A stretch of DNA of 64,000 nt from Thiobacillus sp. GTDB taxonomy: Bacteria > Pseudomonadota > Gammaproteobacteria > Burkholderiales > Thiobacillaceae. The stretch covers positions 43,097-107,096 of the forward strand of contig JAJPEP010000048.1 in assembly GCA_021166845.1 (NCBI GenBank), read 5' to 3'. Below the pieces are notes generated by a model that made no database searches, was not told where the DNA came from, and worked only from the letters and a program-made list of their open reading frames with translations. A program made the position numbers and the translations under genes. Of the stretch, positions 2,842 to 13,337 are shown piece by piece; position 1 is the stretch's first letter, and each line of letters starts with the position of its first letter.

Positions 2842-3165
2842 ATGACTTATGTTGTAGCCGACGCCTGCGTAAAGTGCAAATACACCGATTGTGTCGATGT
2901 CTGTCCGGTGGACTGCTTCCACGAAGGCCCCAACTTCCTCGTCATCGACCCCGAGGAGTGCATCGACTGCACGCTGTGCGTGGCCGAATGCCCGGTCGAA
3001 GCCATTTTCGCCGAAGACGACGTGCCGGACGACCAGCGCGCCTACATCGCGCTCAATGCCGAACTCGCCAAGCAGTGGAAAGTCATCATCGAGAGCAAGG
3101 ACCCGCTGCCCGATGCCGATGAATGGGCCAAGGTCAAGGACAAGCTGAAACAGCTGGAGCGCTGA
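2842..3165 (+). CDS. fdxA: 7Fe ferredoxin (FdxA type)
   Basis: A small electron carrier of 107 residues with one [3Fe-4S] and one [4Fe-4S] cluster. The N-terminal cysteines are at residues 9, 12, 17, 21 and 25. The second cluster motif, [11 protein letters not shown], spans 40-50. The C-terminal extension of about 50 residues is typical of the FdxA / Azotobacter FdI-like group. It is transcribed away from trxA and is followed 5 bases later by the AddB-like gene. The electron partner cannot be told from the sequence. Confidence 0.93.
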
Positions 3166-3170
3166 GCCGC

Positions 3171-5867
3171 TTGAAAATCTCCGGCGACGACGCGCTGCCG
3201 CATGCCGTCGCCCGCCACCTGCTCGATCAACACGCCGACCGCCTGCCCGACCTGTCCGGGCTGACGGTGCTCGTCCCCAACCACCGCGCCGGGCAGGATT
3301 TCGCCCGCGCGCTGGCGCGGGCAGCCGGCCGCCGGGCACTGATCCCGCCACGCATCGTCCCGCTGAAGGCCTGGGCCGAGAGCGAGGCCGACGGCCGCGC
3401 CGAACCGCAGGCGCGGCGGCTGGCGCGCCTGCACGGCGTGCTGCGGCGCGTCGATTGGCTGGGCGCGGTCGACCGTTGGGCGCTCGCCGGCGAACTGCTG
3501 CAACTTGCTGACGAACTGTCGGCCGCGCGGCTGGGCGCCGAGATCGGCGCACGGGTTCGCGCGCTGCACGCTGGCGCGCTCGACCGCGCCGTACTTGATC
3601 GTGAGACGGCGCTGATCGAGGCGGTGTGGCAGGCGCTCAACAATGACGGCCATGACCCGCAGGCGCGCTATGCACGCGCGCTCGACACGCTGGCCGAACA
3701 AATCGGGGCGGCCCCGCAGCCGATCTACGGCTATGCGCTGGGCACGCTCACCGCCGTCGAACAGCAGTTTCTCGCCCGTTGCGCCGAACGCGCCCCGCTC
3801 ACGCTGTTCGAGGCGGACGCCGAAGCCGCCGTAACTTTCACCCTGCACCAGGCCTGGCAGCTGACCGACCCGCCGCTGCGCGACCGCGCCGCCGCCCTCG
3901 CCCGGCGCGTCCCCGCCTCGCCGCTGCAGGATCGCATCACGCTGGCCCCGGCGCCGCACCTGGAAGCCGAAGCGCGCGCCGTCGCCACCTGGGTGGCCGG
4001 CCAGCTGCGCACCGGCCGGCGCGCACTCGCGCTGATCGCGCTCGACCGCGAAACCGCGCGGCGGGTGCGCGCGCTGCTCGAACGCATGGACGTGCTGGCG
4101 GCCGACGAAACCGGCTGGACGCTGTCGACCACCGCCGCCGCCGCGGTGATCGACCGCTGGCTCGAATGCGTGGCGAGCGACTTCCCGCACGTCGAATTGC
4201 TCGATCTCCTGAAATCGCCCTTCGTTCTGGGTGAACCGGCCGCGCGCCAGGACCAGGTGCTCGCTTTCGAACTGGCGCTGCGCCGGCAAGGCGTGTCGCA
4301 GGGGATGACGGAGATGCTGCGGCTGGCGCACCGCGAATTCGCCGCACTGCCTGCCTGGCTCGCCGCGCTGTTCGACGCCCGCCAGGGGTTCGAGCAGCGC
4401 CGCGCGCCGCTCGCGGTGTGGCTCGCCCGGCTCGCCGACAGTCTCGCCAAACTGGAGGCCATCGCCCCGTTCAAGGCCGACGCCGCCGGCGCCGGCGTAC
4501 TCGACACGCTCGACACCCTGCGCCGCGATCTGGCGGACGATGGCGAAAAATACGGCTTCGCCGAATGGCGGCGCTGGCTCAACCTGGCGCTGGAATCGGC
4601 CAGCTTCATCGACGCCAGAGTCGCCAGCCCCATCGTGCTGACCTCGCTTCCCGCCGCCCGCGGGCGCCTGTTCGACGCCGTGGCGCTGATCGGCGCCGAC
4701 GCCCGCCACCTGCCCGCGCGCCCCGCGCCCGGCCTGTTTTCGCAGGCCACCCGCGCGCAACTGGGCCTGTCAACCGCAAGCGACGAAGCCGAGGCCGTCA
4801 CCGCCGACCTGATGCAGCTGCTGGTCCAGGGGCCCACGCTCATCAGCTGGCAGGCATGGAACAACGACGAGCCCAACCCCGCCTCGCCGCTGGTGCTGCG
4901 GTTGCAGGCGCTGCACCAGGCTGCCTGGGACAGCGCCCTGCCCGAGCAGGCCGTCGGCATTCCGCCCACCCAGCCCGGCCCGCTGCCCACCGCCTGCGTG
5001 CAGCCCGCGCCGACGGTCATGGCCGCGCAGCTGCCGCGCCATTATTCGCCCACCGCCTACCAGACCCTGCTCGACTGCCCCTACCGGTTTTTTGCGCGCA
5101 GCGTGCTCGGCATCCGCGAACTCGACGAGGCCGACGACGCGCTCGACAAGAGCGACTACGGCAACGCGCTGCACCGCATCCTCAAGGCCTTTCACGACAG
5201 CGCGCCGCCACTTGAACGCGCCGCCGCGCTGGCGCAGCTTAACGCCCTCTCCGCCGCCGAGTTCGCCGCGCTGCCCGCGTACACCGCCGCCGCCTGGGCG
5301 AGCCAGTGGGACAGCATCCAGCCCGCCTACATCGACGCCTGGCTGGCGCACGCATCCGCCGGCTGGTGCTACGAATCCGGCGAAACCGATTTCGCGGTGC
5401 CGCACAGCGTTGAAGGCCTGGGTGAGATCACCCTGCACGGCCGCGTCGACCGCGTGGATGCAAAAGGCGACGCCCGCTACGTGATCGACTACAAGACCAG
5501 CGCCGCGCAAGGCCTGAAAAAGAAGCTCAAGACGCCCGACGAGGCCGTGCAGCTGCCCTTCTACGCTTGGCTGTGCGAGGCTGCCGCCGCCTACCTGCCG
5601 ATCAACGAAGCCCCCGTCGCCGCGCTCGAACTCGACGGCGAAACCGACGTCGCCGCCATCAGCCTGCGCCTGCCGGCGCTGCTCGAAGCCATCGCCGCCG
5701 GTACGCCGCTCCCCGCATCGGGGGTCGACGCTGCCTGCCAGCACTGCGAAGCGCGCGGGCTGTGCCGCAAGGGGATGTGGAGCGAATCGGATGAAGCCCT
5801 GCTGGATGCCATTCCGATTGACGAAGATACCGACGAATGGGAGTGGGACGACGACCCTCAGGCTTGA
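3171..5867 (+). CDS. AddB-like PD-(D/E)XK nuclease, DNA repair protein
   Basis: An 898-residue protein resembling the betaproteobacterial AddB/RecB-like 'probable DNA repair' nucleases. The N-terminal two thirds is a degenerate helicase-like region. The C-terminus has the nuclease core (GRVDRVD, then VIDYKTSA). One cysteine in LLDCPYRFF plus three in ACQHCEARGLC match the Fe-S staple seen around AddB nuclease domains. The TTG start at 3171 is preferred: it follows the ferredoxin stop by 5 bases and has GGAG about 12 bases upstream; no in-frame ATG fits. Its expected partner helicase lies not next door but at 10044, beyond the restriction island. Confidence 0.85.
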   Translation: MKISGDDALPHAVARHLLDQHADRLPDLSGLTVLVPNHRAGQDFARALARAAGRRALIPPRIVPLKAWAESEADGRAEPQARRLARLHGVLRRVDWLGAVDRWALAGELLQLADELSAARLGAEIGARVRALHAGALDRAVLDRETALIEAVWQALNNDGHDPQARYARALDTLAEQIGAAPQPIYGYALGTLTAVEQQFLARCAERAPLTLFEADAEAAVTFTLHQAWQLTDPPLRDRAAALARRVPASPLQDRITLAPAPHLEAEARAVATWVAGQLRTGRRALALIALDRETARRVRALLERMDVLAADETGWTLSTTAAAAVIDRWLECVASDFPHVELLDLLKSPFVLGEPAARQDQVLAFELALRRQGVSQGMTEMLRLAHREFAALPAWLAALFDARQGFEQRRAPLAVWLARLADSLAKLEAIAPFKADAAGAGVLDTLDTLRRDLADDGEKYGFAEWRRWLNLALESASFIDARVASPIVLTSLPAARGRLFDAVALIGADARHLPARPAPGLFSQATRAQLGLSTASDEAEAVTADLMQLLVQGPTLISWQAWNNDEPNPASPLVLRLQALHQAAWDSALPEQAVGIPPTQPGPLPTACVQPAPTVMAAQLPRHYSPTAYQTLLDCPYRFFARSVLGIRELDEADDALDKSDYGNALHRILKAFHDSAPPLERAAALAQLNALSAAEFAALPAYTAAAWASQWDSIQPAYIDAWLAHASAGWCYESGETDFAVPHSVEGLGEITLHGRVDRVDAKGDARYVIDYKTSAAQGLKKKLKTPDEAVQLPFYAWLCEAAAAYLPINEAPVAALELDGETDVAAISLRLPALLEAIAAGTPLPASGVDAACQHCEARGLCRKGMWSESDEALLDAIPIDEDTDEWEWDDDPQA

Positions 5868-5892
5868 AAAATACAAAAACAGGGCGTATTGT
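5864..5892 (+). promoter_or_regulatory. Sigma70-type promoter of the restriction-modification operon
   Basis: TTGAAA (5864-5869) and TATTGT (5887-5892) are separated by exactly 17 bases, and the -35 overlaps the stop codon of the AddB-like gene. AAAAATAC occurs on either side of the -10 (about 5867 and 5895), with GTATT between as a partial inverted match. This is a possible operator for the methyltransferase, which has an N-terminal helix-turn-helix. The operator role is inferred. Confidence 0.6.
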
Positions 5893-5918
5893 CCGCAAAA
5901 ATACCCAGAGGAAAGCCC

Positions 5919-7211
5919 GTGTCCGCCCCGATCCCCATTACCACTGTGCTCACCACAGGCGGCGACGATGCCGTTCTAGCCTATCTGAAAGCCGCCCGCG
6001 AACACCACACACAAGCCAAGATCGCCGATTTTCTAAAGACTACTCCCCGCACGATTCGTCGCTGGGAAACCCGCCAGTCCGTCCCACCGCCCTATGTCAT
6101 TCACGCCCTGCAACAGCTTTTGCCACTCGATTTACCTTTCGAGGGGGAGGCCGCGTTCAGCTTTATCGATCTATTCGCCGGCATCGGCGGTATCCGCCGC
6201 GCCTTCGAAACCATAGGCGGGCGCTGCGTCTTCACCAGCGAATGGGATAGCTACGCGCAAAAAACCTACGCCGAGAACTTCCGTGACGGCCACGCCATTA
6301 ACGGCGACATCACACAGGTTAAGGCCACCGAGATTCCCGACCACGACGTGCTGCTGGCCGGATTCCCCTGCCAGCCGTTTTCCATTGCCGGGGTTTCCAA
6401 AAAGAATGCGCTGGGCAAAGCCCACGGCTTCGCGTGCGTAACACAGGGCACACTGTTTTTCGACGTCGCCCGCGTCATCGCCGAAAAGCGACCACGCGCC
6501 TTCCTGCTGGAAAACGTCAAAAACCTTACCTCGCACGACAAAGGCCGCACCTTCGACGTTATCAAACGTACCCTCAGCGAAGAGCTTGGCTACCACATCC
6601 ACACCCGCGTCATCGATGGCGCGCATTTCGTCCCTCAGCACCGCGAGCGCATCCTCATCGTTGGCTTTCGCGAGCCTGTCGCGTTCGACTTTGACGCCTT
6701 ACCCATGCCGCCCAAGGGCCAGCACACGCTGAAAGAAATCCTGCATCATACTGACGGCACCGAACCGCACCTGCCTTGGGATGAAGACCGCTTCTTCAAC
6801 CACGCTCACAACAAGGTGCAGGATAAATACACCCTCACCGACAACCTCTGGCGCTACCTGCAGGGCTACGCGGAAAAACACCGCGCCAAAGGCAACGGCT
6901 TCGGCTTCGGTCTCGTCACGCCCAACAGCGTTACCCGCACCCTTTCCGCCCGCTATTACAAGGACGGCTCCGAGATTTTGATTTATCAAGGCGAAGACAA
7001 AAACCCGCGTCGTCTGACGCCCAGAGAATGCGCAAGGCTGATGGGTTTCCCCGATACATTCAGGATTCCAGTGTCGGACACGCGGGCTTACAAACAGTTT
7101 GGTAATTCTGTTGTTGTTGATGTCATGGCTCACGTTGCCAAGTTGATGCAGCCCTATCTGGAAGCTGATATCCTGGAACCTGAGCTACCCCTTCGTTTTG
7201 CCACAGCCTGA
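5919..7211 (+). CDS. Dcm / M.EcoRII-like DNA (cytosine-5) methyltransferase with N-terminal HTH
   Basis: The 430-residue enzyme carries the ordered C5-methyltransferase motifs: I (DLFAGIGG, 84-91), IV (GFPCQPFS, 148-155, catalytic Cys151), VI (ENVKNL, 198-203), VIII (QHRER), IX (RTLSARYY) and X (FGNSVVV). Long stretches match E. coli Dcm as I remember it (for example AGVSKKN and LTPRECARLMGF), so CCWGG is the likely target. Residues 30-62 look like a helix-turn-helix (IADFLKTTPRTIRRWE), suggesting autoregulation as known for related enzymes. The GTG at 5919 is preferred over a TTG at 5889 because AGAGGA sits 6 bases upstream. It is the first gene of a tight operon with a small ORF, vsr and the endonuclease. 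Confidence 0.93.
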   Translation: MSAPIPITTVLTTGGDDAVLAYLKAAREHHTQAKIADFLKTTPRTIRRWETRQSVPPPYVIHALQQLLPLDLPFEGEAAFSFIDLFAGIGGIRRAFETIGGRCVFTSEWDSYAQKTYAENFRDGHAINGDITQVKATEIPDHDVLLAGFPCQPFSIAGVSKKNALGKAHGFACVTQGTLFFDVARVIAEKRPRAFLLENVKNLTSHDKGRTFDVIKRTLSEELGYHIHTRVIDGAHFVPQHRERILIVGFREPVAFDFDALPMPPKGQHTLKEILHHTDGTEPHLPWDEDRFFNHAHNKVQDKYTLTDNLWRYLQGYAEKHRAKGNGFGFGLVTPNSVTRTLSARYYKDGSEILIYQGEDKNPRRLTPRECARLMGFPDTFRIPVSDTRAYKQFGNSVVVDVMAHVAKLMQPYLEADILEPELPLRFATA

Positions 7212-7221
7212 GGAGATGACC

Positions 7222-7503
7222 ATGTACACACAATCACGCATCCCAAAACTGCAGGACACCACTTTTGATAGCGCCTTGTTGTGGTTCTCTGAGTTGCAAT
7301 GCAACGGCCTTCTTTTCCACCCGGAAGATAATCCATCTGAAATTTTCAGATTCGCTGATGACGAACGCATGTTCTCGGATACCGAGGTTCAGGAGCTGCG
7401 CTTCCTGCTCGACGAGCTAGATGAAAACTTGGGGCACGACAGAATGATTGAAGCTGCTTACCCGATTTTCATGAATGCCGTCGGAATCCAGCTTGATGCT
7501 TAA
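7222..7503 (+). CDS. Small acidic protein of unknown function inside the R-M operon
   Basis: A 93-residue acidic protein that I do not recognise. It has an aromatic N-terminal part (LLWFSELQCNGLLFH), an acidic middle (DELDEN) and no obvious helix-turn-helix, metal site or membrane segment. The ATG at 7222 is chosen because TGAGGAG, overlapping the methyltransferase stop, lies 6 bases upstream. Its stop overlaps the vsr start (TAATG). Translational coupling between the methyltransferase and vsr implies co-expression and a possible accessory role, but no function can be assigned. Confidence 0.8.
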   Translation: MYTQSRIPKLQDTTFDSALLWFSELQCNGLLFHPEDNPSEIFRFADDERMFSDTEVQELRFLLDELDENLGHDRMIEAAYPIFMNAVGIQLDA

Positions 7504-7949
7504 TGGTTGACGTTGTTGATCCGGCCACGCGTAGCCGGATGATGTCTGGCATCCGAGCGCGCAACACCAAACAGGAAGTTTTGATCCGCAGTTTGTTGCA
7601 TCGCAGGGGGTTTCGGTTTCGCCTACATGTCCGAAACCTTCCCGGCAAACCAGACATGGTGTTTCCGCGTTACCGTGCTGTTATTTTCGTTCACGGCTGT
7701 TTCTGGCATGGACACGATTGCTCGTTGTTCAAATGGCCGGGCACGCGCCCAGAATTTTGGCGCGAAAAAATTGGCCGTAATCAGCGTAACGACCACCGTA
7801 CACGCGCCGCACTCATTTCTGCAGGCTGGCGTGTAGGCGTTGTATGGGAGTGTGCCATCCGTGGCGCGGATAAGGATTTGGATGGTGTCATACGTCGGCT
7901 GGCCGACTGGCTACACAGCAATGAGCCGTTTATAGAGGAGCGTGGATGA
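7503..7949 (+). CDS. vsr: Very short patch repair endonuclease (T/G mismatch)
   Basis: A 148-residue Vsr protein. It nicks next to T in T:G mismatches left when 5-methylcytosine deaminates, protecting methylated CCWGG sites from mutation. Key residues match E. coli Vsr numbering: Glu25 (NTKQE), Asp51 (LPGKPDMVF) and the FVHGCFWHGHDC motif with the zinc-site and active-site histidines. The start overlaps the upstream stop (TAATG), and its own stop overlaps the endonuclease start (ATGA). Its position beside a Dcm-like methylase mirrors the dcm-vsr pair of enterobacteria. Confidence 0.96.
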   Translation: MVDVVDPATRSRMMSGIRARNTKQEVLIRSLLHRRGFRFRLHVRNLPGKPDMVFPRYRAVIFVHGCFWHGHDCSLFKWPGTRPEFWREKIGRNQRNDHRTRAALISAGWRVGVVWECAIRGADKDLDGVIRRLADWLHSNEPFIEERG

Positions 7950-9190
7950 AAAGCGGGTACCTGTCGGAATATTTTGAAGGGGTTGCAGCCAAACGTCTTA
8001 GTGCAGTTGAGGCGGACAGAACTTGCTCCAATCAGCATGAATACCAAGCCACCAAGAGCATGCTAACGTTTATGGGCAAGCCGGCCGAACCAACGCGCAT
8101 AGCCACCCGCTTTCTTTACCTGACCGATGATGACGCGGAACCCATTGTTGAAGACGCCTTCCTGACGCTTTACGACTGCCGAAAAGACCAGCCACACCGT
8201 CCAGCTGAATACCGTTTTTATTTTCCAACCACTACTGTCTCCCTAAATGCTGCCGAAGGTGATCTGCTCGTGATTGCCAAGCGCCACGATGGCGAACTTT
8301 TGGTTGTTATCGCTGAAAACGGTTCAAGTATTTCAGCGCAAATTGAATGGCTATTTGGCTTCACCGACTTGGCTCATCCCGGTTTTTCGGTCAAGTCCGA
8401 ACTGGAAACCGAGCAAGATCGCATTGAGTTTGCTTCACGATTCATCCTTGAAAACATTGGCGTTGCGGTAGAGGCTTCGGTTGAGGCCTACCTTGATGCG
8501 ATGCTGGATAGATTCAAAGGGAAGTTTCCGACAACACGCGAATTTTCCGCCTATGCCCGTTCCACCCTGAAGGACCTCAACCCGGTGGAAGACCAGGATT
8601 TGGTATTGATGGCCTGGATGGAGCGGGAAGAAATCCTGTTTCGGACACTCGAACGCCATCTAATCGCCGACCGCCTTTCCACAGGTTTTGGTGGCGACGT
8701 GGACACGGGTGTGGATGTGGATGGTTTTTTATCGTTTTCCTTATCCGTGCAAAACCGGCGCAAGAGCCGGGTTGGACTTGCGCTCGAAAACCATCTCGAA
8801 CTGCTGTTTGCTGAGTGCGGCATCCAATATAAACGCACCGCTGTAACGGAAAACAAGGCCAAACCGGATTTCATTTTCCCCAGTGTTGCGGCATACCATG
8901 ACCCCACCTTTGATGCTCTGCGCCTGACCATGCTCGGCGTGAAATCCACCTGTAAAGACCGCTGGCGACAGGTGCTTGCGGAGGCTGATCGCATCGAACA
9001 CAAGCACCTGCTCACGCTCGAAGCTTCAATCAGCAAACACCAAACAGACGAGATGCAGATAAAAAATCTGCAACTCGTTTTGCCGCGTGGTCTGCACGAG
9101 ACCTACACGCCTGAGCAACAGGCGTGGCTTATGGATATTTCTTCATTTACAGAGATGGTGCGAGAACGGCAGGAAGCCACTGACACCTGA
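7946..9190 (+). CDS. EcoRII-like type IIE restriction endonuclease
   Basis: The 414-residue protein is close to EcoRII length (about 404). It has an N-terminal effector-binding region and a C-terminal catalytic domain. Asp308 in KPDFIFP, Tyr317, and Lys333/Lys337 in GVKSTCKDRWRQVL line up with remembered EcoRII catalytic residues Asp299, Tyr308, Lys324 and Lys328 at a constant offset of nine. This supports cleavage at CCWGG, consistent with the Dcm-like methylase and Vsr upstream. The gene is coupled to vsr by an ATGA overlap and is visibly more AT-rich than the flanking repair genes, a sign of transfer. All catalytic residues are present, so it is probably active. Confidence 0.93.
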   Translation: MKSGYLSEYFEGVAAKRLSAVEADRTCSNQHEYQATKSMLTFMGKPAEPTRIATRFLYLTDDDAEPIVEDAFLTLYDCRKDQPHRPAEYRFYFPTTTVSLNAAEGDLLVIAKRHDGELLVVIAENGSSISAQIEWLFGFTDLAHPGFSVKSELETEQDRIEFASRFILENIGVAVEASVEAYLDAMLDRFKGKFPTTREFSAYARSTLKDLNPVEDQDLVLMAWMEREEILFRTLERHLIADRLSTGFGGDVDTGVDVDGFLSFSLSVQNRRKSRVGLALENHLELLFAECGIQYKRTAVTENKAKPDFIFPSVAAYHDPTFDALRLTMLGVKSTCKDRWRQVLAEADRIEHKHLLTLEASISKHQTDEMQIKNLQLVLPRGLHETYTPEQQAWLMDISSFTEMVRERQEATDT

Positions 9191-9199
9191 TCGCCTTTC

Positions 9200-9262
9200 A
9201 TGCAGCCCCGTCCCCTCGACACCGCCACCGCCCTTTCCCCCGCCCGCTCAGCGGTGTTTTGA
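9200..9262 (+). pseudogene. Vestigial start of the AddA-like helicase gene
   Basis: An ATG at 9200 opens a 20-codon frame ending at TGA 9260-9262. Its product contains DTATALSPARS, identical over 11 residues to the true helicase N-terminus at 10044. Over those 11 codons the DNA differs at only two third positions. Homology stops before the Walker A motif. This is a truncated helicase start left between the restriction operon and the toxin-antitoxin pair, evidence of recombination at this locus. Confidence 0.75.
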
Positions 9263-9332
9263 ATGCCGGAGCCGACATGGTGCATCCATCCCAACCAATG
9301 ATATTCTTACCGGGTATTACAGGAGATCATTC

Positions 9333-9578
9333 ATGGAAACAACATCCGTAACCAGCAAGGGGCAGGTCACCATTCCCAAATCCTTGCGCCAGCAACTGGG
9401 CATCCGTCAGGGCAGCAAGGTGGAGTTCTCGCTGGTTGACGATCATGTTGAGCTGCGGGTGCGGAGTTCGCCCACCGAGGTGGTCACCAGCGGATTTGGC
9501 ATGTTGAGCAGCCGCAAGCGTGCCGTGCCCGCAGATTTTGACCCTGCCACCTTGCTCAATCCATCGCCCAAAAAATGA
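9333..9578 (+). CDS. AbrB/MazE-type antitoxin (VapB-like)
   Basis: An 81-residue protein with an N-terminal SpoVT/AbrB swapped-hairpin domain (TSKGQVTIPKSLRQQLGI, residues 7-24) and a C-terminal tail suited to binding a PIN toxin. Such proteins neutralise the toxin and repress their own operon. The ATG at 9333 follows AGGAGA by about 6 bases; the longer open frame from 9087 overlaps the endonuclease and is not used. Its stop overlaps the toxin start (ATGA), so the two are translationally coupled. Confidence 0.92.
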   Translation: METTSVTSKGQVTIPKSLRQQLGIRQGSKVEFSLVDDHVELRVRSSPTEVVTSGFGMLSSRKRAVPADFDPATLLNPSPKK

Positions 9579-9991
9579 TCGGGCTGGATACTAATGTGCT
9601 GGCCCGCTATTACATCGCGGACAAGGCCGATGCAGAGGCGCAACGTCAACATGAGGCCGCGCGCCGGTTGATTGAATCTGGTCAAGCTTTGATGGTGTGC
9701 AAAACCGTAGCGTTGGAACTGGAATGGGTGATGCGCGGCTATTACGGTTTCAGCCCGCAGGAAATCGCGCGCGTATTTCACCATCTTCTGAGCCTGGATC
9801 ATGTCACGGTGGAAGACCGTGAAACGCTACTGCAGGCGCTGGCGCAGAGCGAAGCCGGGCTGGAAATGGCCGACGCCTTGCACCATGCGAGTTATCGCGG
9901 CTGCGATAGCATGGCTTCGTTTGACGGCCAGAAATTTGCCCGCCGGGTAAAGCGTCTGGGGCTGATGCCCCGAGTTGTTGTACCTGACTGA
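9575..9991 (+). CDS. PIN-domain ribonuclease toxin (VapC-like)
   Basis: A 138-residue PIN-domain protein. Acidic residues expected to hold the catalytic metal are present: Asp5 (GLDTNVLARYY), Glu48/Glu50 (ALELEW), Asp100 (MADALH) and Asp117 (ASFDGQKFA). Toxins of this family cleave specific RNAs and stop growth until bound by the cognate antitoxin, encoded immediately upstream with a 4-base overlap. The RNA target is unknown. The pair forms the right edge of the island, 52 bases before the helicase start. Confidence 0.93.
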   Translation: MIGLDTNVLARYYIADKADAEAQRQHEAARRLIESGQALMVCKTVALELEWVMRGYYGFSPQEIARVFHHLLSLDHVTVEDRETLLQALAQSEAGLEMADALHHASYRGCDSMASFDGQKFARRVKRLGLMPRVVVPD

Positions 9992-10043
9992 GCAATGTTG
10001 TCCCGGCTTATTGAAGCCGCTGACTTCGCCACACGCTTGAATC

Positions 10044-13000
10044 ATGCCCAACCCCTTCGACACCGCCACCGCCCTGTCCCCCGCCCGCTCGGTGGTGGTG
10101 GAAGCCTGCGCCGGCAGCGGCAAGACCTGGCTGCTGGTATCGCGCATGCTGCGTCTGTTGCTGGCGGGTGCCGCGCCCTCGGAGTTGCTGGCGATCACGT
10201 TCACGCGCAAGGCGGCGCAGGAAATGACTGACCGCCTGCACGAGTGGCTGCGCGTGCTGGCGCTGGAAGACGACGCGACGGTGCGCAAGTTTTTGCACGA
10301 GCGCGCGGTGCCGGATGACGAGATCGACGCGCTGCTGCCGCGCGCGCGCGGGCTGCTGGAGATAGTGCTGACTGCGCAGCCGGGACCGACGGTGACGACC
10401 TTCCACGGCTGGTTTCTCGATCTGCTGAAACGCGCACCGCTGGAAGCCGGGTTGCCGTGGGGCGCCCCACTGCTTGAGCGCACCCGCCTGCTGCAGGACG
10501 AGGTACGCGATCGCCTGCTGGCGCAATGGGCTGGCACGCCCAATTCGCCTGAAGGCGCGGCGCTACTGGCCTTGCTGGCCGACGTCGGCGAGCACAATCT
10601 GCACGCACTGCTGAAACACTTTGTCGATGCCCGCGCGGAATGGTGGGCGTATACCGACGAGGCGCCCGACCCGGTGGCGCATGCGCTGGAACAACTGAAG
10701 CCGGGCCTGCACCCCGATCTGGAGTGCGATCCGGTGGCGGCATTCTGGGCCGACGAGCTGATGGTGGCGCGGGTGAAGCGGGTGGGCTTTGCGCTGGAAA
10801 AGGGCGGCAAGAGCGAATGGGTGCGCGCGCCCGAAATTCAGCGCAGCCTGGGCCTGCCGCCCGATGAGGCCCATGTCTCACTCATGAGACACCTGATGAC
10901 GGCGGGCAAGCGGCGCAAGAAGCAGGCGACCAGGGAACTGGAAAACGCGCTCGGCGCCGAACTCGACACCTACCTGCGCGACCTCGACACGCTCGAAACC
11001 GCGCTGGAAACCGTCGCCGCGATCCAGGCCGACCAGCGCATCTGGGCGCTCAACCGTCACGGCCTGCTGCTCGGCCACGCGCTGCTGGCGGCCTATCAGG
11101 ACGCCAAGGTGCAGCAGGGGGTGATCGACTTTGCCGATGCCGAATGGCAGGCCTGCCGCCTTTTGCGCAGCGAGGAACACGCGCCGGCGCTGGCGCTGAA
11201 GCTGGACGCGCGCTACCGGCATCTCTTGCTCGACGAATTCCAGGACACCAACCCGCTGCAGTGGCAGGCGCTTTCGACCTGGCTTCTGGAAGCGCGCGGC
11301 GCGGACAGCGCGATGACGGTGTTCATGGTGGGCGACCCCAAGCAGGCGATCTACCGCTTCCGCCGCGGCGAGGCGCGGGTGTTCGACGCGGCGGCGGATT
11401 TTCTGCGCACGCATTTCGACGCCGCGCGCTTCAGCACCGACATGACGCGGCGGCTGGCGCCGGCGGTCGTCGCGGCGATCAATCCGGTGTTCGCCGGTGT
11501 GACGGGCTTTGCCGAGCACACGCACGCGCCGGCAAACGACCTGCGCCCGGGCGCGCTACGCAGCCTGCCGGTGCAGGTGGAAAAAACAGAAACCGCGACG
11601 ACTGATGGCCTGCCCCACACGGGGACTCCGATCCACTACGCGGCCTCCGGCCACGTGTGGAGTCGTATGCGCAATCCGCTCACCACGCCGCAGCCGGAAG
11701 CCGACGACCGCGCCGTGCATGAGGAAGCGCGGCAGTTTGCCCGGGTGTTGCGCGACGAGGTGCTGGGGCGCTGGGGCGTGGCAGACAAAGCCGGCGCCCT
11801 GCGCGCGGCGCGCCCCGGCGACGTCATGGCGCTGGTGCGAAAGCGCACCCACCTGCACCTGTACGAGCGCGAACTGGAAGCCGCCGGCATCCCCTTCATC
11901 ACCTCGCGCCGCGGCGGCCTGCTGCACGCGCTGGAGGCGCAGGACGTGATCGCGCTGATCGAAACCCTGCTGCTGCCGCACGCCGACCTGAAGCTGGCGC
12001 ACGTGCTGAAGTCCCCGGTCTTCGGCTGCAGCGACGACGACCTGCTGCGGGTGTTCGCGCCCGGCGCCGCGCCGCGCGGCTGGGAACGGCTGCTCGCGCT
12101 CGCCGCCGAAGCCGATTGCCCGCCCACGCTGGCGCGCGCGGCGCAGCTGCTGACCAGCTGGCGCGCCCATTGCGGCACGCTGCCGGTGCACGACCTGCTC
12201 GACCGCATCTACTTTGAGGGCGACGTCGAAGCGCGCTATGGCGCCGCCGTGCCGGAGGCGATGCGACCGCAGGTGGCCGCCAATCTGCGCGCCTTCATGC
12301 AGCTGGCGCTGACGCAGGACGCAGGGCGCTACCCCACGCTGGCCGGCTTCGTGCGCGAGCTGGCCAGTCTCATCGATGACGCCGACGCCGCGCCCGGCGA
12401 AGGGCTGGCGGCCGACGGCGAGAATGCGGTGCGCCTCTTGACCATCCACGGCGCCAAGGGGCTGGAAGCGCCGATCGTCTGGCTCCTGGGCGGCAGCGAC
12501 CACGCGCGCGGCGACAGCTACGCCGTGCTGGCGCCGTGGCCGCCCGAGGCCGCGCGGCCGGTTCACTTCTCGCTGTTCGGCAAACTGGAAGACCGGGGGG
12601 CGGCACGGGAAGGCTGGTTCCAGGAAGAAGCCGATCTGGCGCAGCGCGAATCCGACAACCTGCTGTACGTGGCGCTGACCCGCGCCGCGCAGGGGCTGAT
12701 CGTCAGCGGCGACGCCGGCAGGAACGCCTGGCTTGCGCGGGTCGATGCGGCCTGGCAAAACCTGGGCCTGCCAGCCGATCTGCCATCCGCCGCCGCCGAG
12801 GCAGCCGGAACCCCCGCCGTGCCGGTCCGCATCGACGCCCCGGCGGTGGGCCAGCGCGTCACCCCGCCGGCCGCGAGTCCGGCGGCGGCGGGCGGCGAAT
12901 TGTTCCACGCGTGTCTGGAGGCCCATGCGCCGCCCGGCGCGCCGCGCGACCTGTCCGCGCTGGCGGCGCGCCTGGGGCTTGAAACCGAACTGGACGCCAC

Positions 13001-13337
13001 CGAGGCCGCGGCCCGCGCCCTGCTGGCACAGCCGCAGCTGGCGCACCTGTTCGACCCGGCGCGGTATCGACGCGCCCACAACGAGTGGGCGCTGCTGGAT
13101 GCCGACGGCCGCCTGCAGCGGCTCGACCGCGTGGTGGAATTCGACGACGCGGTGTGGCTGATCGACTACAAGACCGGCGACGACAGCCGCGCGCTGTCCG
13201 ATGCGCAACTGGTCGAGCGCCATCGCGCCCAGCTCACCGGCTACCGGATCCTGCTCGCCGAACTCCATGCCGGCAAGCCGGTGCACGCCGCGCTGCTGCT
13301 GGCCGACGGCCGCCTGGTCGACATGATGTCCGGCTGA
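10044..13337 (+). CDS. UvrD/RecB-family helicase-nuclease (AddA-like)
   Basis: A 1097-residue superfamily 1 helicase. Walker A ACAGSGKT is at residues 21-28, followed by motif Ia (ITFTRKAAQEM), Walker B (LLLDEFQDTNP), motif III (FMVGDPKQAIYRFR), motif V (LTIHGAKGLEAP) and motif VI (YVALTRAAQ). A C-terminal RecB-like nuclease core (LDRVVEF, then LIDYKTGDD) follows. It is expected to process double-strand breaks together with the AddB-like nuclease at 3171-5867, from which it is separated by the 4.1-kb island. The ATG at 10044 precedes the conserved N-terminus, of which a truncated copy lies at 9200. Confidence 0.92.
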   Translation: MPNPFDTATALSPARSVVVEACAGSGKTWLLVSRMLRLLLAGAAPSELLAITFTRKAAQEMTDRLHEWLRVLALEDDATVRKFLHERAVPDDEIDALLPRARGLLEIVLTAQPGPTVTTFHGWFLDLLKRAPLEAGLPWGAPLLERTRLLQDEVRDRLLAQWAGTPNSPEGAALLALLADVGEHNLHALLKHFVDARAEWWAYTDEAPDPVAHALEQLKPGLHPDLECDPVAAFWADELMVARVKRVGFALEKGGKSEWVRAPEIQRSLGLPPDEAHVSLMRHLMTAGKRRKKQATRELENALGAELDTYLRDLDTLETALETVAAIQADQRIWALNRHGLLLGHALLAAYQDAKVQQGVIDFADAEWQACRLLRSEEHAPALALKLDARYRHLLLDEFQDTNPLQWQALSTWLLEARGADSAMTVFMVGDPKQAIYRFRRGEARVFDAAADFLRTHFDAARFSTDMTRRLAPAVVAAINPVFAGVTGFAEHTHAPANDLRPGALRSLPVQVEKTETATTDGLPHTGTPIHYAASGHVWSRMRNPLTTPQPEADDRAVHEEARQFARVLRDEVLGRWGVADKAGALRAARPGDVMALVRKRTHLHLYERELEAAGIPFITSRRGGLLHALEAQDVIALIETLLLPHADLKLAHVLKSPVFGCSDDDLLRVFAPGAAPRGWERLLALAAEADCPPTLARAAQLLTSWRAHCGTLPVHDLLDRIYFEGDVEARYGAAVPEAMRPQVAANLRAFMQLALTQDAGRYPTLAGFVRELASLIDDADAAPGEGLAADGENAVRLLTIHGAKGLEAPIVWLLGGSDHARGDSYAVLAPWPPEAARPVHFSLFGKLEDRGAAREGWFQEEADLAQRESDNLLYVALTRAAQGLIVSGDAGRNAWLARVDAAWQNLGLPADLPSAAAEAAGTPAVPVRIDAPAVGQRVTPPAASPAAAGGELFHACLEAHAPPGAPRDLSALAARLGLETELDATEAAARALLAQPQLAHLFDPARYRRAHNEWALLDADGRLQRLDRVVEFDDAVWLIDYKTGDDSRALSDAQLVERHRAQLTGYRILLAELHAGKPVHAALLLADGRLVDMMSG

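Follow-up and report, generated by a model that had tools for sequence, protein, structure and literature searches.

What does a restriction-modification cassette do between the two genes of a DNA-end-processing enzyme, and how did it come to be there? Restriction enzymes make DNA breaks, and AddAB degrades or repairs DNA ends. In the window (the whole 64,000-nucleotide stretch of Thiobacillus DNA that was analysed), four tightly packed genes at 5919-9190, every frame of them intact and open, split addB from addA, the genes for the two AddAB subunits (Table 1). The top NCBIfam rows of the two flanking genes are addB_alphas (126.9 bits, under the curated equivalog cut-off of 486.5) and addA_alphas (370.3 bits, under 860.75). 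An earlier note, made from the sequence alone, had described a complete EcoRII-type operon of methylase (M), Vsr (V) and endonuclease (R), and the four open genes with their family matches bear this out. We think it probable that they form an intact EcoRII-type cassette, with predicted methylation and cutting at CCWGG, that it occupies an addB-addA site of varied cassettes, and that it was captured there, most likely by addA-anchored recombination.

Table 1. Features of the cassette and its surroundings (positions in the window)
Feature	Position	Strand	Description
addB-like gene	3123..5867	+	914 aa; 5' of cassette; PF12705 131.6 bits
MazE-like tail of AddB, SDEALLDAIPIDEDTDEWEW	5787..5846	+	13/20 identical to G013 MazE end
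Predicted M promoter TTGAAA-17-TATTGT	5864..5892	+	overlaps addB stop; layout same in relatives
Predicted operator palindrome GGGCGTATTGTCC for HTH of M	5882..5894	+	10/13 to consensus
M	5919..7211	+	C5-cytosine methylase, predicted N-terminal HTH, likely GTG start, 430 aa
S	7222..7503	+	93 aa, acidic, three predicted helices, without described family
V	7503..7949	+	Vsr mismatch endonuclease
R	7946..9190	+	EcoRII-type endonuclease; B3-like N-domain and EcoRII-C
addA 5'-end remnant, MQPRPLDTATALSPARSAV then stop	9200..9256	+	earlier addA
VapB (AbrB/MazE-fold antitoxin) and VapC (PIN) module	9333..9991	+	PF04014 44.7 bits, PF01850 31.4 bits
addA-like gene	10044..13337	+	1097 aa; 3' of cassette; PF00580 144.4 bits

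Gene content of the cassette

M has the C5-methylase fold and motifs of Dcm and M.EcoRII (PF00145, 283.4 bits with a cut-off of 22; TIGR00675, 328.9 with a cut-off of 100.65). Because it scores 444.1 bits against the E. coli Dcm subfamily NF007772, under the curated cut-off of 710, we regard it as a relative of Dcm and do not class it as Dcm itself. It is predicted to be a CCWGG methylase of the Dcm/M.EcoRII kind, which would protect the CCWGG sites of the host. Several helix-turn-helix (HTH) models concur on residues of about 31-82, HTH_3 reaching 19.5 bits against a Pfam cut-off of 23. The most likely start is GTG 5919, since AGAGGA precedes it at 5907-5912, genome G023 has an ATG at the same codon, and the other candidate, TTG 5889, was rejected as it falls inside the predicted -10 box.

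R carries the EcoRII-C catalytic domain of the PD-(D/E)XK type (PF09019, 229.7 bits, cut-off 25). Its alignment to EcoRII, a check that the earlier note had proposed, gave a strong match (3hqg, E 3.6e-41), and the catalytic residues do lie at a constant offset, as had been claimed: D308, K333 and E346 (positions counted by hand) align at +9 with D299, K324 and E337 of EcoRII, which we take to be the catalytic residues, and they are invariant across 44 aligned R proteins. The N-terminal B3-like effector domain was recognised by its fold; a Pfam profile search gave no match to EcoRII-N. R would be a Type IIE enzyme that cuts DNA unmethylated at CCWGG, in which EcoRII-C would catalyse and the B3-like domain would sense a second CCWGG. 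V belongs to the Vsr family (PF03852, 109.9 bits, cut-off 27; TIGR00632, 150.4, cut-off 97.85) and would repair the T:G mismatches that arise by deamination at methylated CCWGG.

The small protein S matches no described family. It had no match in Pfam or PADLOC and a single NCBIfam row far under cut-off (E 0.15), no plasmid match at E up to 0.001, no phage match at E up to 1 and no PDB fold match with E < 2; the best match among viral models was borderline and unnamed (E 1.2e-3). S is present in 4 of the 274 genomes of a class-wide draw, the window's genome counted, and in the other three (L151-L153) it again lies between M and Vsr. Locus L059 has a 28% match near Vsr and M, and G009 a 36% fragment of S ahead of Vsr. 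S has a pI of 4.1, against 11.1 for Vsr, and one may speculate that it is an acidic partner of this basic protein. It likely modulates M or V, which is the least certain part of our explanation.

Predicted control of the methylase

The promoter that the earlier note had called well formed is the only sigma-70-like match in 5600-10300. Since shuffled sequence yields 2.0 such matches on average, this promoter alone is no better than chance, and we rejected it as stand-alone evidence; what supports it is the comparison of operators among relatives. A palindrome resembling an operator covers the -10 box, and its consensus occurs upstream of 42 of the 50 rows for M proteins bearing an HTH (two rows being one contig) and of 1 of the 10 relatives without one, a consensus derived from the same loci that were later scored and of which the window copy is among the weaker. 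Sequence comparison thus places a palindrome over the methylase promoter, as in SsoII-like autoregulating methylases, and the consensus resembles the published Ecl18kI site. Autoregulation of M through its putative HTH and the predicted operator, which the earlier note had suggested from the promoter and the HTH, is well supported by this comparison, and we judge it probable. Through this HTH the methylase would attach to the palindrome at 5882-5894 and so repress the operon when it is present in sufficient amount. With the operator upstream of some forty loci, a known scheme of autoregulation becomes a prediction for a broad family.

The addB-addA junction and its cargo

The addB-addA junction carries an insert in 11 of 26 genomes of the genus, against 0 of 30 for the neighbouring fdxA-addB junction; the genomes are related and not independent counts, a dependence that the Fisher p understates. 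The flanks are the same, empty sites occur (G001, G005), and the cargo differs between relatives, comprising MazEF, VapBC, AAA-DUF4143 and methylase-HNH fusions, all predicted defence or toxin-antitoxin genes. Together with the higher frequency than at the control junction, this makes the site a probable insertion hotspot. An ordinary mobile restriction-modification island that landed here by chance, its place being meaningless, would fit the wide distribution of EcoRII-type R, which is found in phage KL3 and in 2593 plasmid records (most of them under 60% identity), and also the low GC content of the cassette (M 0.575, S 0.479, R 0.516, against 0.71 for addB and addA). However, repeated filling of this junction with differing cargo, when its neighbour is filled in none of 30 genomes, makes such a chance landing unlikely.

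The use of a single fixed junction again and again could also point to a site-specific integrase or a transposon instead of addA-anchored recombination. But no integrase or transposase was found among the 17 cargo ORFs scanned, which are part of all cargo ORFs, and the addA remnants are of unequal length (about 17, 32 and at least 80 codons), which sets them apart from a target duplication of fixed size. We give this mechanism as little chance as a random landing. The addA 5' remnants mark repeated insertion, and they offer a readable history of how cassettes were stacked without an evident integrase.

Under capture by addA-anchored recombination, the site of the window was probably filled in three steps. 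A MazEF module would have arrived first, its MazE tail now ending addB: the last 26 or so residues of AddB are absent from relatives whose addB abuts addA, and the identity of this tail to the C-terminus of the MazE that follows addB in G013 was equalled in 0 of 100000 shuffles. M, S, V and R would then have been placed beside addA, and finally VapBC would have come in and brought a fresh 5' end for addA; the remnant at 9200-9256 would be what was left of the earlier one. A VapBC module also adjoins addA in G003, G004 and G006. The earlier note had missed that the cassette interrupts addB-addA, that a VapBC module lies behind it, that a remnant of addA is present, that addB has a MazE-like end and that M most likely starts at 5919.

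At sister loci, HNH modules stand in place of R and a 3' stub of R is left (L045, L047, L062, L063); in L063, MazEF-like DNA matches MazE residues 1-78 and MazF residues 1-104 at the level of sequence alignment. Such stubs, and a premature stop at codon 104 of R in G033, could mean that the cassette is decaying, in which case M would persist as an orphan Dcm-like methylase and R would have ceased to restrict. In the window, however, each of the four frames is open and the catalytic residues have been retained, so decay seems more doubtful than either alternative above. CCWGG sites do remain in the window, as the earlier note had pointed out, with 226 sites at 0.70 of the Markov expectation. 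Depletion separates the R classes only weakly, because the ratio is still 0.67 in G033, 0.73 in G002 and 0.94 in G007 (both methylase-HNH) and 0.77 in G013 and G030, both without R; intact R is limited in this comparison to the window's genome and G023. The depletion is compatible with CCWGG cleavage by R and is no proof of it. An assembly or binning artefact is very improbable: many of the genomes are draft assemblies, G000 being 86% complete and 6% contaminated, but eleven carry inserts, several of them (G002, G010, G013, G015 and G032) 97-100% complete on contigs of 40-715 kb, and their junctions are graded and decayed.

There is also a bolder reading, which we put forward tentatively and hold to be less likely than not. 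The addB-addA junction may be a dedicated site of defence-gene exchange in the genus, filled by addA-anchored recombination, in which a self-regulated CCWGG methylase and its operator form a fixed platform and the nucleases are swapped (EcoRII-type with Vsr, or HNH). R and AddA might then form one transcription unit, and the MazE tail of AddB might still neutralise MazF. The replacement of an EcoRII-type enzyme by HNH behind the same kind of methylase shows a way for a genome to trade one restriction enzyme for another and keep its protective methylase. The recurrence of predicted defence cassettes between the AddAB genes makes co-expression and joint selection testable.

Comparison with known systems

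The earlier note had considered the presence of M, V and R together uncommon. This view does not hold: M and V lie within a few kb in 34 of the 63 loci that encode a relative of R, with the M-V-R order kept on a single strand in 31 of the 34, and the trio found in Burkholderia phage KL3 has been in the literature since 2010 (PMC3091744). The KL3 module likewise combines R, V and M, for which the same roles were proposed, and its R is 78.5% identical to that of the window; it differs in that it sits in a P2-like phage and that its published gene table has no S gene between M and V (PMC3091744). The EcoRII system itself (Type IIE, CCWGG) shares the EcoRII-C catalytic domain, the B3-like N-domain as judged by fold and a C5 methylase of the Dcm/EcoRII kind. 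Unlike it, the window cassette has Vsr and S in one operon, is chromosomal between addB and addA, and has an N-domain that Pfam misses.

SsoII and Ecl18kI have a C5 methylase with an N-terminal HTH, which is also predicted for M, and, as here, a methylase promoter covered by a GGACA..TGTCC-type palindrome, as outlined in PMC3695355. However, the recognition site of Ecl18kI is CCNGG, and its M and R genes are transcribed divergently (PMC3695355), whereas the window genes are one operon. Repression of M would therefore lower R too, unless an internal promoter exists.

Biochemically the cassette is a known kind of restriction-modification system. As for its place, a literature search at the level of titles and opening lines of abstracts found no report of an addB-addA insertion hotspot. 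The Listeria hotspot lmo0301-lmo0305, as described in PMC10059834, similarly has fixed flanks and restriction-modification systems that vary by strain, but the site in the window is the overlap of two AddAB subunit genes, where addA remnants persist. In the account of Vibrio T6SS effector-immunity arrays in PMC5361080, a homologous anchor also admits modules, and remnants of displaced genes stay behind; in the present case addA would serve as the anchor, for a cargo of defence and toxin-antitoxin genes.

Interruption of the addB-addA junction

The cassette, which encodes a C5-cytosine methylase with an N-terminal HTH (M), a 93-aa protein (S), Vsr (V) and an EcoRII-type endonuclease (R), lies between an addB-like gene upstream and an addA-like gene downstream. 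Both genes are present on one contig in 26 of the 36 same-genus genomes (G000-G035, G000 being the window's own). addB abuts addA in 15 of these 26, overlapping it by a few bases in G001 and G005, whereas in the other 11 the aligned ends are 1.6 to 23.6 kb apart. The neighboring fdxA-addB junction served as a control and was interrupted in none of the 30 same-genus genomes in which both genes share a contig; of these, 25 show overlapping aligned ends and 5 a gap of 83-144 bases. The difference between the junctions is significant when the relatedness of the genomes is ignored (Fisher p 5e-5). None of the 11 order-level genomes (of 24) with both genes on one contig has a large insert. We found no report of an addB-addA exchange site in the literature searched, and this site may be unfamiliar to specialists.

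Coordinates of features in the window and in related loci
Feature	Sequence	Position	Strand
Overlap of addB start with fdxA 3' end, 43 bases	window	3123-3165	
addB-like gene	window	3123..5867	+
Predicted M promoter	window	5864..5892	
Predicted operator palindrome	window	5882..5894	
M-S-V-R	window	5919-9190	
Leftover addA start	window	9200-9256	
DNA resembling G006	window	from 9277	
VapBC	window	9333..9991	+
addA-like gene	window	10044..13337	+
523-aa ORF between S and V	L004	7987-9558	
Near relative of M-S-V-R	L002 (G033:C129)	10001-11230	
Second C5 methylase and its Vsr (L065, L175)	G000:C108	8761-12443	

Cargo between addB and addA in the 11 interrupted genomes
Genome	Cargo
G023	M-S-V-R
G000	M-S-V-R, then VapBC
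G002	M of the window's kind fused to HNH nuclease; small gene
G007	M-HNH fusion of the kind in G002; small gene; AAA_14-DUF4143 gene (PADLOC PDC-S01)
G003	MazEF, HNH gene, VapBC
G013	MazEF, HNH, DUF4143
G009	MazEF, different methylase with Vsr, DUF4143, signalling genes
G010, G014, G032	DUF4143
G015	Signalling genes only, among genes matched

A predicted defence or toxin-antitoxin gene is found at the junction in 10 of the 11. Large histidine-kinase genes lie there in G009 (L134) and G015 (L139), with EAL-domain gene(s) also in G009, so some cargo is not defence-like. G009 carries an additional addB fragment (aa 783-853).

The cassette and its relatives

The earlier note regarded M, V and R together as uncommon, and this does not hold. 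The three occur in order on the same strand in 31 of 63 loci encoding an R relative (S is present in 5 of those 31) and otherwise arranged in 3 more, which makes 34 of 63, and the module of phage KL3 was reported in 2010 with the same roles proposed (PMC3091744). Viewed as a restriction system, the cassette is well formed and of a type already known.

S, which is acidic and has three predicted helices (pLDDT 89.8), has 393 homologues, 120 of them listed, and may be unfamiliar to specialists. It follows M in the inspected loci L001, L002, L004, L005, L012, L024 and L151-L153, and V comes next except in L004 and L024. In L004 a 523-aa ORF separates S from V; therefore, cargo can also enter inside the operon. 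The near relative in G033 is not at addB or addA, and its R frame stops at codon 104. Outside the window, the genome it comes from (G000) encodes a further C5 methylase paired with a separate Vsr; between them is a 241-aa ORF that, by motif, we take to resemble a GIY-YIG protein.

In the window, CCWGG, the predicted target of M and R, occurs at 0.70 and CCSGG at 1.08 of Markov expectation. When samples of 20-64 kb per genome were compared, CCWGG stood at 0.70 (window) and 0.71 (G023) with intact R, 0.67 with the truncated R frame of G033, 0.73 (G002) and 0.94 (G007) with methylase-HNH fusions, and between 0.77 and 0.95 in eight genomes lacking R, among which G024 and G032 have a methylase relative. 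These figures are weakly compatible with a CCWGG system and are no proof of one. CTAG, which is scarce in many proteobacteria, was observed 9 times in the window against 32.5 expected.

A predicted operator before M

The most likely M start, GTG 5919, has AGAGGA six bases 5' and corresponds to an ATG in G023, and is favoured over TTG 5889, whose first base is already within the -10 box. A palindrome with consensus GGACATAATGTCC is repeatedly found 5' of M in related loci, its centre often being CATAAT at the expected position of the -10 box. HTH-bearing M rows score at least 10 against the 13-mer consensus in 42 of 50 cases (at least 11 in 30 of 50), or more fairly in 41 of 49, because L001 and L149 are one contig, in a test that is partly circular because the consensus was derived from the very loci scored. 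Shuffled sequence reached 10 in 2.7% of trials; where the M match did not include the HTH (10 rows), a single row reached 10, far from the M start. In the window the palindrome reads GGGCGTATTGTCC, a copy with a score of 10 that its close relatives share. For Ecl18kI, repression of the methylase gene by its product takes place at GGACAAATTGTCCT (PMC3695355), and such autoregulation is covered, citing EcoRII and SsoII work, in a review (PMC3874152). Judged from sequence, M may likewise repress its operon via the window palindrome. Because the genes form one operon, this would also lower R, barring another R promoter; a simple promoter scan found no second promoter for R. The breadth of the operator among loci may be unfamiliar to specialists.

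Probable turnover and stepwise insertion

Between addB and addA, L063 has MazEF, HNH, a gene for 115 aa and a C-terminal fragment of R (aa 310-411), in that order. In L062, L045 and L047, M and HNH are accompanied by a related small gene and by pieces of R from aa 232, 155 and 155 onward. HNH modules appear to have taken the place of V and the front part of R behind a similar methylase. Methylase-HNH fusions are widespread, with both domains in 119 of the 120 matches listed.

Four addB genes (window, G023, G002, G007) continue for about 25 residues beyond CRKGMW, as does that of L005, though with less resemblance; addB ends within 2-6 residues of this motif in G001, G005, G014, G032, G015 and L063. 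The window tail, SESDEALLDAIPIDEDTDEWEWDDDPQA, is identical in 13 of 20 residues to the C-terminal end, HDEAVLDTIPVDEGDDEWVW, of the MazE encoded directly after addB in G013 (0 of 100000 shuffles as good), and this MazE is also encoded in G003 and G009, where MazF comes next. The simplest history would be that a former MazEF was lost except for its putative antitoxin tail, now fused to addB. A MazE-tailed AddB may be unfamiliar to specialists.

Downstream of R, the leftover addA start, MQPRPLDTATALSPARSAV, ends at a stop. Together with the preceding bases, it is 85% identical over 124 columns to the R-addA junction of G023, where addA starts MQPHPLDTATALSP. The G006-like DNA runs across VapBC into the working addA (MPNPFDTATALSP) and is 96% identical over 1225 columns. 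Because the remnant matches the G023 junction and is followed by G006-like DNA, M-S-V-R probably once adjoined addA, and VapBC probably arrived later, bringing a new addA 5' end. Other addA remnants are found in G007 (aa 1-32) and, at a contig edge, in G004 (aa 12-91), and L004, which is not at addB, carries M-S, one more gene, V-R, DUF4143 and then a truncated addA start. The remnants are of unequal length, and none of the 17 cargo ORFs that were scanned matched an integrase or transposase; both points fit the mechanism that we infer, illegitimate recombination facilitated by homology, with addA as the anchor. Such recombination has been put forward for the T6SS arrays of Vibrio and is said to be rare there (PMC5361080).
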